A stretch of DNA of 64,000 nucleotides from Robiginitomaculum sp. (GTDB lineage: Bacteria; Pseudomonadota; Alphaproteobacteria; Caulobacterales; Maricaulaceae): positions 434,001 to 498,000 of the forward strand of contig JAJFFT010000006.1 in the NCBI GenBank assembly GCA_021776525.1, in the 5' to 3' direction. The first letter of the stretch is position 1; every line of letters begins with the position of its first letter. The notes under the pieces are model-generated. The model did not search any database, was not told the DNA's origin, and was given only the letters and a program-made list of their open reading frames with translations. This document shows, piece by piece, positions 35,662 through 62,646 of this stretch. Position numbers and translations under genes: made by a program.

Positions 35662-36840
35662 ATGGGTTTTTCACACCAACAGGGTCGCCGGTATGATCTG
35701 GACTGGTTGCGGGTTATCGCCTTTGGCTTGTTGATTTTCTATCACATCGGCATGCTTTACGTGACGTGGGGCTTTCACATTAAAAGCCCCTATGCTGGAA
35801 CCTGGCCCGAACCTTTTATGAGGCTGGTAAACCCGTGGCGATTGTCTTTGTTGTTTTTTATATCAGGCGTTGCCGCCCGCTTTATGTTGGACAAGGTTTC
35901 ACGTGAAACCTTTGCCAAAGAGCGCCTTTGGCGTTTGTTTATCCCGCTTTTCATTGGCATGCAGTTTGTTGTTGCCCCACAAACCTATTTCCAGTTTTTA
36001 CAAGCCGGTACTATTCAGCCCGGTTTTTGGGCCTTTTTTGCACAATATTCCAACCCAGACTTTGTCTTTGAAGGTACGACAACGCCCACCTGGAACCATT
36101 TATGGTATGTGGCCTATCTCCTGGTCTATTCCTTCCTTCTGGTTGGCCTTGCCCCGACGATACAAGCCTTGGCACGCGGTCCGATTGGGCGGATCATAGC
36201 GCGGCAACCGGCTTGGGTGACGGCACTGGTGCTCCCCGTCATTCCCCTTCTTGTGGTGCGCTTTACCCTGGCACCACATTGGCCAACCACCCATAATCTG
36301 GTTTCTGACTGGGCCAATCATGGTGTCAGTTTTTATATTTTCCTCTTAGGCTATGGCATAGCCAAATCACCGGTCTTCTGGCGCGCCGTAGATAAAATGC
36401 GGTTTTGGGCGTTGGGTTTATCGATCGCCCTGATCGTTCCGCTTTCTTTTGTCTGGGTGAATTGGGACGGCTTTCTTGAATGGCTTGGGCCAAATTACGA
36501 GCACTCGTCCCTGTTGTTTCTGGCCAGGTCCGCTCGCGTTCTTTATGCATGGCTTGCGATCGTCAGTCTTTTGGGGTTTGGGCAGCGTATATTGAATAAG
36601 CCCAGCGCCGTCCTAACCTATCTCACCTCAATGGTTTTTCCTTATTATATCCTGCATCAAACCTTGTTGATCGTCATTGCTTATCCTTTGGGAAAAATGC
36701 GCCTTGGCCTGCCCGTTGAGGCCGGATTGGTGGTTATCGGAACCATTGCCGGATGCGTGTTGATCAGCGAGTTGATCATCAAACGCATTGCCTTGCTGAG
36801 GGTTTGTTTTGGAATGACGCTAAAAAGCAAACCTGAATAA
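35662..36840 (+). CDS. Acyltransferase-3-family (OpgC-like) membrane protein
   Basis: RRYDLDWLRVIAFGLLIFYHIGMLYVTWGFHIKSPY; ~10 TM; LTSMVFPYYILHQTLLIV. Confidence 0.87.
   Translation: MGFSHQQGRRYDLDWLRVIAFGLLIFYHIGMLYVTWGFHIKSPYAGTWPEPFMRLVNPWRLSLLFFISGVAARFMLDKVSRETFAKERLWRLFIPLFIGMQFVVAPQTYFQFLQAGTIQPGFWAFFAQYSNPDFVFEGTTTPTWNHLWYVAYLLVYSFLLVGLAPTIQALARGPIGRIIARQPAWVTALVLPVIPLLVVRFTLAPHWPTTHNLVSDWANHGVSFYIFLLGYGIAKSPVFWRAVDKMRFWALGLSIALIVPLSFVWVNWDGFLEWLGPNYEHSSLLFLARSARVLYAWLAIVSLLGFGQRILNKPSAVLTYLTSMVFPYYILHQTLLIVIAYPLGKMRLGLPVEAGLVVIGTIAGCVLISELIIKRIALLRVCFGMTLKSKPE
35895..35910. other. parS: parS-like 16-bp palindrome GGTTTCACGTGAAACC within acyltransferase CDS
   Basis: Exact 14-bp core GTTTCACGTGAAAC. 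Confidence 0.75.
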
Positions 36841-49001: not shown

Positions 49002-49883
49002 TTAGTCCTGGGTCAGGCGCCGGCAAAGGTCATCCAGTTGTTCAAGTGTGCGATAACTGATCCGAATATGCCCCGAGCCATTCGCCCGTGAAGAAATACC
49101 AACCGCAAGGCCCAGCCGTCGGGTCAGATCTTCTTCCAGCGCCATGGTGTCGGGATCTTTGCCGCCGCCGGACCTGGACTTGCTGCCCTTGGTTTCAGGC
49201 GCCTGGTTGGCCTGACGAGCCAACTGCTCAGCCTGGCGAACATTCAAACCCTCTTTGGCGACTCGCAAAGCAAGTGCCTCTGGGTTTGGGGTGTTGATCA
49301 TGGCGCGGCCATGACCGGCGCTTAATGCGCCCTCGCAAATTAATTCCTGAACGGAGGATGGCAGGCTCAGCAAACGGATGGCATTGGCGATTGCCGCCCG
49401 GCTTTTTCCTACCGTTTTCGCGATCTCTTCTTGTGTGTGGTTAAACTGGTCGGACAAAACCTGAAAGCCCCGCGCCTCTTCGATCGGGTCCAGGTCCGTG
49501 CGCTGAATGTTTTCAATCAGCGCAATTTCCATCACCTCTCGGTCCGACAGATCTCGAACAAGAACAGGCACCTCGTGCAAGCCGGCCCGTTGCGCGGCAC
49601 GCCAGCGGCGCTCGCCCGCCACAATCTGATAACCGTCCCCGCCAGGAATAGGCCGCACGATAATCGGCTGCAACACACCTTTTTCCATAATCGAGTTGGT
49701 CAGGTCTTGAAGATCATCTTCTCCAAAGCGGCGACGTGGTTGGTCCGGGTTCCGACTTAAGGATTCAATAGGTACAAAGTTGCCTTTGTTGTTTTCCGCT
49801 ACGGCAAGTTCAGGCCCATCGGCCTCACCCAATAATGCCGATAAACCTCTGCCCAGGCGTTGTCCTTTTGGAGTGTCGCTCAT
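49002..49883 (-). CDS. parB: Chromosome partitioning protein ParB
   Basis: RLGRGLSALLGE, GERRWRAAQRAGLHEVPVLVRDLSDREVMEIALIENIQRTDLDPIEEA. Confidence 0.97.
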   Translation of the reverse strand: MSDTPKGQRLGRGLSALLGEADGPELAVAENNKGNFVPIESLSRNPDQPRRRFGEDDLQDLTNSIMEKGVLQPIIVRPIPGGDGYQIVAGERRWRAAQRAGLHEVPVLVRDLSDREVMEIALIENIQRTDLDPIEEARGFQVLSDQFNHTQEEIAKTVGKSRAAIANAIRLLSLPSSVQELICEGALSAGHGRAMINTPNPEALALRVAKEGLNVRQAEQLARQANQAPETKGSKSRSGGGKDPDTMALEEDLTRRLGLAVGISSRANGSGHIRISYRTLEQLDDLCRRLTQD

Positions 49884-50683
49884 AATGCCCTTACCTTGTT
49901 TTCTCGGCGAATGACTTCACTCGCCAAACGCATATAGGCCTTGCTGCCCGCGCATTTGTGATCATAAATCAACGCTGGTTTGCCATAAGACGGCGCCTCG
50001 GAAACCCGCACATTGCGCGGGATAACGGTTTCATAAACGGTGTCGCCAAAGTGTTTGCGCACATCGTCTGAAACCTGTTTGGAAAGATTATTGCGCGGGT
50101 CGTACATGGTCAGCACCAGACCCTGAATTTCCAGTCTGGGGTTGAGATTAACGCGAACCAGATCAACCGTGCGCAAAAGCTGGGTGAGGCCTTCCAATGC
50201 AAAAAACTCGCATTGTAAGGGGACCAGCAACGCGTCTGCAGCAGTCAAGGCGTTGACCGTCAAGACGTTCAGTGATGGCGGACAGTCGATCAGCACATAT
50301 TCGTATTCGCCGCTTTTTTTAAGATCGATCAGCGCGTCTTTGAGGCGGTGCGAACGGCGGGCAACATTTGCCAGCTCAAGTTCGGCCCCAGCAAGATCGG
50401 CCTCTGCGGGTGCAATGTGAAGACCGGGAACCTTGGTCCGCACAATCGACTTCATTAACGGCGCTTGACCGACCATAACATCATATGTTGTTACGCGGCG
50501 CGCCGCATGATCTATGCCCAAACCCGTCGACGCATTGCCCTGGGGGTCGAGGTCCAAGATCAAGGTTTGTTTGCCAATGGCGCATAACGCCGTTGCCAAA
50601 TTAATCGTTGTGGTGGTTTTCCCCACACCGCCCTTTTGATTGGCAATAGCAATAATACGAAGGCCGGCAGGTGTTTTAGGCAC
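49880..50683 (-). CDS. parA: Chromosome partitioning ATPase ParA
   Basis: IIAIANQKGGVGKTTTTINLATAL deviant Walker A. Confidence 0.97.
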   Translation of the reverse strand: MPKTPAGLRIIAIANQKGGVGKTTTTINLATALCAIGKQTLILDLDPQGNASTGLGIDHAARRVTTYDVMVGQAPLMKSIVRTKVPGLHIAPAEADLAGAELELANVARRSHRLKDALIDLKKSGEYEYVLIDCPPSLNVLTVNALTAADALLVPLQCEFFALEGLTQLLRTVDLVRVNLNPRLEIQGLVLTMYDPRNNLSKQVSDDVRKHFGDTVYETVIPRNVRVSEAPSYGKPALIYDHKCAGSKAYMRLASEVIRRENKVRAL

Positions 50684-51305
50684 GATAGGCTTCCTCGATC
50701 TTCAAAATTGTTGCCGTTTTATCTGTCAGACTTGGAACAGATTCGTATTTCAAAACCCAAGCCTTGCGGGCCTCTTCAATTTCTTTTTGCACTTCTGCGC
50801 CCTTTAAAAACAACCTGACCGTCGACGGGCCTGCAAAAGCCTCACTTAAGCCCAGCAATTTGGGTAACGGCGCCAATGCCCTTGCTGTTATCACATCATA
50901 TGGCTTGGGCGGCAAGGATTCAGATCGTGCGCAAAGTACATCCGCCGGGGCCCCCGTCTCATCGATACAGGCCCGTAAAAAAGCCGCTTTTTTTGCGTTC
51001 GACTCGACCAGCGTGACATGAGCCGGGTGATTTTCCATGCGCATGAGGGCAATTGCAATGCCCGGAAAGCCAGCGCCAGAACCAAGATCGATCCAGCGCG
51101 TTGCTCTGTCAGGCATGAGACGCGCCAATTGTGCGCTATCGAGCGCATGGCGCGTCCAAAAAGCATCCAAGGTTGCTGGTGCCACCAGGTTTATCCGCTT
51201 TGACCACTTGCGCAACAGCGCATTCCAAAGGTCAAAGCGCCCCAGTGTTTCACGTGAAACATTCAGATTTTCAGAAAAAAGATCGCGGCCAGTATCGATG
51301 CTCAT
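50676..51305 (-). CDS. rsmG: 16S rRNA (guanine527-N7)-methyltransferase
   Basis: [21 protein letters not shown]...[18 protein letters not shown]. Confidence 0.96.
51246..51261. other. parS: parS site (TGTTTCACGTGAAACA) at 5' end of rsmG
   Basis: Exact 16-bp consensus. Confidence 0.95.
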
Positions 51306-53258: not shown

Positions 53259-53274
53259 TGTTTCACGTGAAACA
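53259..53274. other. parS: parS site (TGTTTCACGTGAAACA) between mnmG and mnmE
   Basis: Exact 16-bp consensus. Confidence 0.96.
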
Positions 53275-60780: not shown

Positions 60781-61190
60781 AGCCCTACTTTTCCCTAATA
60801 TCTATATATTTTTAGAGTGGTTGTTATTGAGCAGTGTAAAACATTGATAAAGAAGTCTGCCCACAGGAATGCCAGACTTATGCAGGAATTAAACACAGAT
60901 TTTCAACAAAAAACAACGATCAGAGACAGCAGAAAAGATTTTTCATAAACCCTAAAACCTCCTATAAAAAGAAGGGGTAAGCGCCTAAACTAGACACATA
61001 TTCGAATCAAGGACACGAGAAAGCTCTAAATTATCAACATTCTTCACAGAATCTCGGAGGTTGACCAAAAAAAGCGTATAAGTAGGGCTTAATTACAAGT
61101 CATACTCGCGATAGGATAAGCAGTCAGACCAGTGGTAAAACAGTGCATATTTTATTAACACTTTATTAACGTTTTACGAGGGAGAGCGCG
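60781..61190. other. oriC: Predicted chromosomal replication origin (Caulobacter-type Cori position)
   Basis: AT-rich non-coding gap between hemE and ppsR; CtrA box TTAA-N7-TTAA at 61155-61169; DnaA-box-like TTATCAACA (61031), TTCTTCACA (61040), TTTTCAACA (60900); GANTC at 61004 and 61049; adjacent parABS. Confidence 0.82.
61155..61169. promoter_or_regulatory. CtrA binding site (TTAACACTTTATTAA)
   Basis: Exact TTAA-N7-TTAA. Confidence 0.8.
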
Positions 61191-62048
61191 GTGGCAGAAA
61201 AGGACGCACAGCCCGGCTATTACGTGCATGTACATTTGGTCTCTGATGCAACCGGCGAAACATTGGCTGGAATTATACGCGCCACCAGCGCGCAATTTCG
61301 CACACTGATCCCGATCGAGCATATTCACGTTCTGACTCGATCAGAAAAACAACTTGATAGCGCTTTGGAAGATATCGAAGCCGCGCCTGGCGTTGTGATG
61401 TATACAATGGCCAACGAAAACCAGCGCAAACGTCTCGTGCAATTCTGCGAACGACGCGCCTTTCCCTGCATTGATGTCTTGGGGCCAACTCTGCACACCT
61501 TCAGCCAGTATTTGGGGACACCGGTCAGTCACGAAACGGGCGCTCAACACAATCAGGATGAGGAATACCATGATAGAATCAATGCCTTGAACTTTGCTAT
61601 GGCACACGATGACGGCCTGTCACCAGAGCGGGTTAGTCAGGCTGATGTCATTTTGCTGGGCGTTAGCCGAACCTCAAAAACACCAACCTGTGTGTATCTG
61701 GCCAACCGGGGTATCAAGGCCGCAAACGTTCCTATTGTTGGAAAGGTTGAACCACAAAAAGCGTTAACCGAGGGCCATAATACACCTCTGATTGTTGGTT
61801 TGACGATCAGCCCGCGTCGTTTGGTACAAATTCGTCGTAATCGTTTGCTTAGCTTGAACGAGCACCGACCAAGCGCCTATATAAATGAAGCCGCTGTGCG
61901 CGAAGAGATTATTTATGCAAAGCGTATGTTTGCACGCTTTAGCTGGCCGGTTATTGATGTAACCCGCCGCTCTATCGAAGAAACATCGGCAAAAATCATG
62001 TCTTTACTGGCGAGCCGAAACGCCGAGGCTCCAGCTGATGAAAAGTAA
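61191..62048 (+). CDS. ppsR: Pyruvate, phosphate dikinase/PEP synthase regulatory protein (DUF299)
   Basis: HLVSDATGETLAGIIRA; LLGVSRTSKTPTCVYLANRGIKAANVPIV; GTG start. Confidence 0.94.
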   Translation: MAEKDAQPGYYVHVHLVSDATGETLAGIIRATSAQFRTLIPIEHIHVLTRSEKQLDSALEDIEAAPGVVMYTMANENQRKRLVQFCERRAFPCIDVLGPTLHTFSQYLGTPVSHETGAQHNQDEEYHDRINALNFAMAHDDGLSPERVSQADVILLGVSRTSKTPTCVYLANRGIKAANVPIVGKVEPQKALTEGHNTPLIVGLTISPRRLVQIRRNRLLSLNEHRPSAYINEAAVREEIIYAKRMFARFSWPVIDVTRRSIEETSAKIMSLLASRNAEAPADEK

Positions 62049-62646
62049 AAAAAACCAGAAAACAAAACTCGTTTTAGCCTCTAATAGTGCCATACGAAAA
62101 AAACTATTATTGCAGGCAGGCATCAACGTTACCGTTCAGCCTTCCGATGTTGACGAATGCGCCTTGAAGAAAGCGGCGCAGGGTAAAGAAGCCGGGGATA
62201 TGAGCGCATTGCTGGCAACAGCAAAGGCCCAGGCCGTTACGGTTAATCAAGACCAGCTGGTCATCGGCGCGGACCAAATTTTAGAGTTTGAAAATCAGCA
62301 ATTTGATAAAGTTGCCACTTTGGGAGAGACGCGAGCGAGGTTGGCGCTTTTGTCCGGCAAAACGCACTATCTTGTTGGCACGACGGTACTTGTTCAACAA
62401 GGGAAGGTAATATGGGAACATAAAAGCCGGGCAAAGATGGTCATGCATGATCTGGATAAAAAAGAAATAGAGGCCTATTTGTACCGCGCCGGAAAACAGG
62501 TTTTAGCCAGCGTTGGTTGTTATGAGATTGAGGGTCTCGGGGTGCGTTTGTTCGAGCGCATTGAGGGGGATTATTTCTCGATTTTGGGCCTGTCTCTCTT
62601 GCCGCTCTGCAAAGAATTGCGCCGTCTGAAGGCTGTTACAATATGA
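62038..62646 (+). CDS. maf: Maf-family nucleoside triphosphate pyrophosphatase
   Basis: LVLASNSAIRKKLLLQAGINVTVQPSDVDE...GADQILEFENQ...YEIEGLGVRLFERIEGDYFSILGL. Confidence 0.93.
   Translation: MKSKKNQKTKLVLASNSAIRKKLLLQAGINVTVQPSDVDECALKKAAQGKEAGDMSALLATAKAQAVTVNQDQLVIGADQILEFENQQFDKVATLGETRARLALLSGKTHYLVGTTVLVQQGKVIWEHKSRAKMVMHDLDKKEIEAYLYRAGKQVLASVGCYEIEGLGVRLFERIEGDYFSILGLSLLPLCKELRRLKAVTI

Follow-up and report, generated by a model that had tools for sequence, protein, structure and literature searches.

The DNA analysed here, hereafter the window, is a 64-kb stretch covering positions 434001–498000 of contig C6 (704 kb) in a genome of 2.96 Mb assembled in 7 contigs. It contains an AT-rich gap between the divergent genes hemE and ppsR, with a CtrA-type motif close to the start of ppsR. 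The locus raises two questions: is the gap the chromosomal origin of replication, and would CtrA bound there act on the origin, on ppsR or on both? Among named genomes, marine Robiginitomaculum MAGs (order Maricaulales in the NCBI taxonomy) come nearest, with 78–85% identity in the PPSR protein.

The hemE–ppsR gap as a probable chromosomal origin

The gap is 410 bp long and 62.9% AT, as compared to 47.5% for the window. Its coordinates, its AT content and the families of both flanking genes agree with the description in the initial annotation. The main features of the region are as follows.

60781–61190, unstranded: predicted oriC, an AT-rich gap flanked by the divergent genes hemE and ppsR (composition, GC-skew switch, gene-order precedent in PMC1914354)
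59746–60780, minus strand: hemE, left flank of the gap (TIGR01464, 386 bits)
61191–62048, plus strand: ppsR (COG1806/DUF299 family), right flank, GTG start (NF003742, 312.6 bits)
49002–50683, minus strand: parB and parA, in the region flanking the parS sites
51246–51261, unstranded: perfect parS TGTTTCACGTGAAACA, 9.5 kb from the gap
53259–53274, unstranded: perfect parS TGTTTCACGTGAAACA, 7.5 kb from the gap

The gene order hemE–oriC–COG1806 is found in Caulobacter and Rickettsia (PMC1914354). GC skew on contig C6 was taken from sampled stretches of 10 kb, or of 8–14 kb in or next to the window, and was negative or close to zero on the hemE side of the gap, positive or close to zero on the ppsR side. 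The local cumulative minimum lies at window position 62145, with the switch from negative to positive within about 1 kb of the gap. The sampled inflection, which the initial annotation had named as a check on the origin, thus falls at the gap. The skew was positive in 20 further stretches from C6 and every other contig, with no second sign change among them. A single-contig genome of the same family (2.69 Mb) gave an equal result, with a skew switch between 2.24 and 2.34 Mb and its hemE–ppsR gap at 2.298 Mb. The reverse change in this relative occurs at approximately 0.84–0.98 Mb, nearly half a chromosome away, and its positive arm is weak.

Genes for the expected regulators were also identified. 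CtrA, whose absence would have spoken against the proposal, scored 421 bits against NF045991 (cut-off 350). The CcrM candidate contains a RAMA domain and matches PDB 6pbd best, over its length (E = 2.8e-167), although its 607 bits fall below the NCBIfam CcrM cut-off of 830. GcrA and IHF alpha are encoded as well, and DnaA is encoded on contig C4, away from the gap. Based on the hemE/oriC/COG1806 (ppsR) gene order, the skew switch, the pair of parS sites and the presence of CtrA, CcrM, GcrA, DnaA and IHF in the genome, we conclude that the gap is very probably the chromosomal oriC. The earlier proposal of an origin at this place is thereby upheld, also by the second genome.

Of the two perfect parS sites, the one at 51246 falls within the 5'-terminal part of the rsmG ORF, and the one at 53259 separates the ORFs of mnmG and mnmE. 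In addition, a third palindrome resembling parS, GGTTTCACGTGAAACC, with two mismatches, was observed at 35895–35910 inside an acyltransferase-like ORF approximately 25 kb from the gap.

DnaA-like boxes and GANTC sites within the gap

Inspection of the gap revealed the following candidate elements for initiation.

60789–60828, unstranded: candidate unwinding element, second least stable 40-mer of the window (unwinding role proposed)
60857–60865, plus strand: degenerate DnaA-like CTGCCCACA (alignment; five congeners have TTATTCACA, TTATGCACA or TTATACACA there)
60900–60908, plus strand: weak DnaA-like TTTTCAACA, two mismatches (pattern match)
61031–61039, plus strand: DnaA box TTATCAACA, one mismatch to TTATCCACA (pattern match and alignment)
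61040–61048, plus strand: weak DnaA-like 9-mer TTCTTCACA, two mismatches (pattern match)

The candidate unwinding element adjoins hemE, in the part of the gap that ranks second for conservation in the congener alignment. The boxes TTATCAACA, TTCTTCACA and TTTTCAACA were correctly positioned in the initial annotation, which described each of them as deviating by one base; this is true of TTATCAACA, whereas the other two are two bases off TTATCCACA. The box at 61031–61039 aligns with a perfect TTATCCACA in three congeners, and several congeners hold better DnaA boxes at the positions of the weak ones. With at most one mismatch, the gap contains a single DnaA-like box (P = 0.10). With at most two mismatches it contains five, against 1.3 expected (P = 0.012), two of which are 2-mismatch boxes in addition to the three noted before.

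The two GANTC sites, at 61004 and 61049, are present as annotated. However, their number is at the level expected by chance (2 versus 1.24 expected, P = 0.36), they are neither enriched nor conserved, and most congeners lack them; GANTC was rejected as a feature of this origin. Over the whole window, GANTC is depleted approximately 2.7-fold (67 sites versus 183 expected), consistent with an active CcrM-type methylase.

CtrA sites in the genus and across the order

The element closest to ppsR is the predicted CtrA site.

61155–61169, plus strand: predicted full CtrA box TTAACACTTTATTAA, reading TTAAC-N6-TTAAC when base 61170 is included (exact match and congener conservation)

The exact TTAA-N7-TTAA at this position, already reported in the initial annotation, is the only one in the window (0.83 expected) and ends 21 bp before the GTG start of ppsR. 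A full box arises in 5% of shuffled gaps (P = 0.05), and a match in a single sequence is weak evidence; the significance of the box lies in its conservation. When eight congeners are aligned, 61155–61171 has 15 invariant columns out of 17, as compared to 8 in the next-best window of the gap and a gap mean of 2.2; no other element of the gap is as well conserved as the box. It was found in all ten congeneric loci examined (the window and L015–L023), approximately 34–37 bp before the ppsR start. This conservation and the presence of a CtrA gene support the control of the origin by CtrA that had been suggested as a possibility. Rather than several CtrA sites across the origin, the gap contains one full site. 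A half-match, TTAA-N7-TTTT at 60889, is separated from ppsR by 302 bp, a distance close to the most distal of the classes described below, and was rejected because it is not kept in the congeners.

Elsewhere, the genome contains few such sites, with nine exact matches to TTAA-N7-TTAAC at eight places in total. Judging from the ORFs, one is located between fliX-like and flgI-like genes and another directly before an nrdB-like gene (loci L114 and L120, 1501–1516 in each); both are possible CtrA targets.

The hemE–ppsR gaps of the order were surveyed for full CtrA sites, which were found in 45 of 85 gaps and in 19 of 32 genera, although the genomes are related and the 85 gaps are therefore not independent trials. 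The sites were present in 14 of 26 gaps in the family of the window and in 31 of the 59 gaps of the order sample, as compared to 3 of 60 hemE–ppsR gaps outside the order. Control patterns with N7 spacing and equal AT content were practically missing from the same 85 gaps (AATT 1, TATA 0, ATAT 1). As a positive control, two genomes of family f3 carry TTAACGCTCTGTTAA, within which lies the published Caulobacter IHF site TAACGCTCTGTT that overlaps CtrA site c (PMC4285127). The full site is absent from 40 of the 85 gaps, and thus control by CtrA is not a universal property of these origins.

The distances of the CtrA sites from ppsR in families f1, f2 and f3 fall mainly into classes of approximately 34–53, 168–206 and 260–310 bp, which are largely constant within a genus and differ from one genus to another. 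Of the 62 full sites in the 85 gaps, 49 are located over 100 bp away from ppsR, often at 168–310 bp. In genera g1, g4 and g7, a full site lies 34–41 bp before ppsR in 7 of 8 genomes (at 36–41 bp in 4 of 5 genomes of g4 and g7). A PPSR tree did not settle whether these three genera form one clade; on it, the site class changes at least 9 times.

Origin, ppsR or both as the possible target of CtrA

The gap resembles the Caulobacter crescentus Cori, located between hemE and CC0001 (COG1806), in its flanking genes, the AT-rich gap of approximately 400 bp, the weak DnaA boxes, the TTAA-N7-TTAA motif and parS within 8–10 kb, and the genomes share CtrA, CcrM and GcrA. It differs from Cori in having a single full CtrA site where Cori has five, with no exact site on the hemE side or in mid-gap, in having TTAT-type boxes where Cori has the G-boxes TGATCCACA, and in that GANTC is not a consistent part of the origin. 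In Hyphomonas neptunium, from a related budding or stalked lineage, ChIP-seq detected CtrA binding beside the origin, at the motif TTAA-N7-TTAAC (PMC7200025). That site is ChIP-verified whereas binding is predicted here, and the comparison is one of motif. The predicted origins of Rickettsia and Wolbachia (PMC1914354) are distant counterparts, similarly deduced from the hemE flank and from DnaA, CtrA and IHF sites; Wolbachia has COG1253, not COG1806, beside hemE.

We consider it reasonably probable that the gap is a Cori-type origin of a marine Robiginitomaculum-like bacterium, with CtrA at the ppsR edge holding off initiation. DnaA would bind the one fair and the several weak boxes and open the AT-rich DNA beside hemE, and phosphorylated CtrA would bind TTAAC-N6-TTAAC at the ppsR edge and hold off initiation in non-replicating cells. 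A hold of this kind on initiation in non-replicating cells is experimentally established in Caulobacter. At Cori, CtrA excludes DnaA (PMC4468827). Since the site is located 21–36 bp before the ppsR start, CtrA bound there would probably also block the transcription of ppsR.

Alternatively, the gap would be oriC while its conserved box acts on ppsR transcription alone, most likely as a repressor site, given that it occupies the position of the core promoter or leader. This agrees with the spacing in g1, g4 and g7, with the peak of conservation in the gap adjoining ppsR, and with the similar proximity of one of the few other sites of the genome to the start of the nrdB-like gene. The initial annotation had cautioned that the site might act at ppsR, and the distance fixed at 34–41 bp in three genera justifies the caution; the site is too near ppsR for a classic −35 activator, and any effect on the gene is thus more likely to be repression. 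However, a scan of the gap for sigma-70-like promoters and terminators found nothing, CtrA binds at the Hyphomonas origin and represses Cori, and most full sites of the order are distant from ppsR. The scattered positions across the 85 gaps suggest that the origin, not the ppsR promoter, is the common denominator. We regard action on ppsR alone as rather unlikely. Judged from the sequences, the fixed spacing argues for a role at ppsR in this clade and the scattered positions elsewhere for a role at the origin, and both may apply.

Less likely still, and in our view improbable, is that the box is a dual site for CtrA and IHF at which IHF competes with CtrA, as at site c of Caulobacter, where the footprinted IHF site TAACGCTCTGTT overlaps the CtrA site (PMC4285127). 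A dual site would explain the conserved spacer, [AG]CTTT[AG], kept in eight aligned congeners; the 13-mer TAACACTTTATTA is one mismatch away from the loose IHF consensus WATCAN5WTR, and the genome encodes IHF alpha. On the other hand, the IHF match is mostly common to the CtrA half-sites themselves, the conserved spacer bases are not specified by the IHF consensus, and the spacer differs in L022–L023. Scanning the gaps with the IHF consensus gave scattered matches, none of which is kept across the genus. Finally, that the gap is a plain AT-rich divergent promoter region and the true origin lies elsewhere is very improbable, since the few good DnaA boxes, the division of the genome into 7 contigs and the use of skew samples are outweighed by the skew switch, the parS sites, the gene-order precedent, the second genome and the lack of a skew sign change in the sampled stretches of C4, the contig that carries dnaA.

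Returning to the Cori-type origin held off by CtrA, this kind of origin is already known; what is new is this member, its single site next to ppsR, which is conserved in the genus, and the count over the whole order, which adds to what has been published on origins controlled by CtrA. In a more speculative reading, which we consider rather unlikely, regulation of the origin by CtrA is ancient in the order and has persisted through a single site that changes place. In the genus of the window and two further genera, the sole full site would then have become fixed 34–41 bp before ppsR and would control initiation together with a regulator of PEP metabolism. The presence of the site in 45 of 85 gaps and 19 of 32 genera, with position classes by genus, makes ancestral control with site turnover directly testable against repeated gain.

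Species in which hemE and ppsR are separated were considered as a means of telling the two roles apart and proved uninformative; the two g11 genomes have no CtrA site. In these loci (L131 and L134), hemE is not beside ppsR and the nearest long ORF is rho-like; both keep an AT-rich gap before ppsR, with DnaA boxes in L131. One f3 genome with hemE and ppsR apart contains two CtrA sites, approximately 330 and 358 bp upstream.
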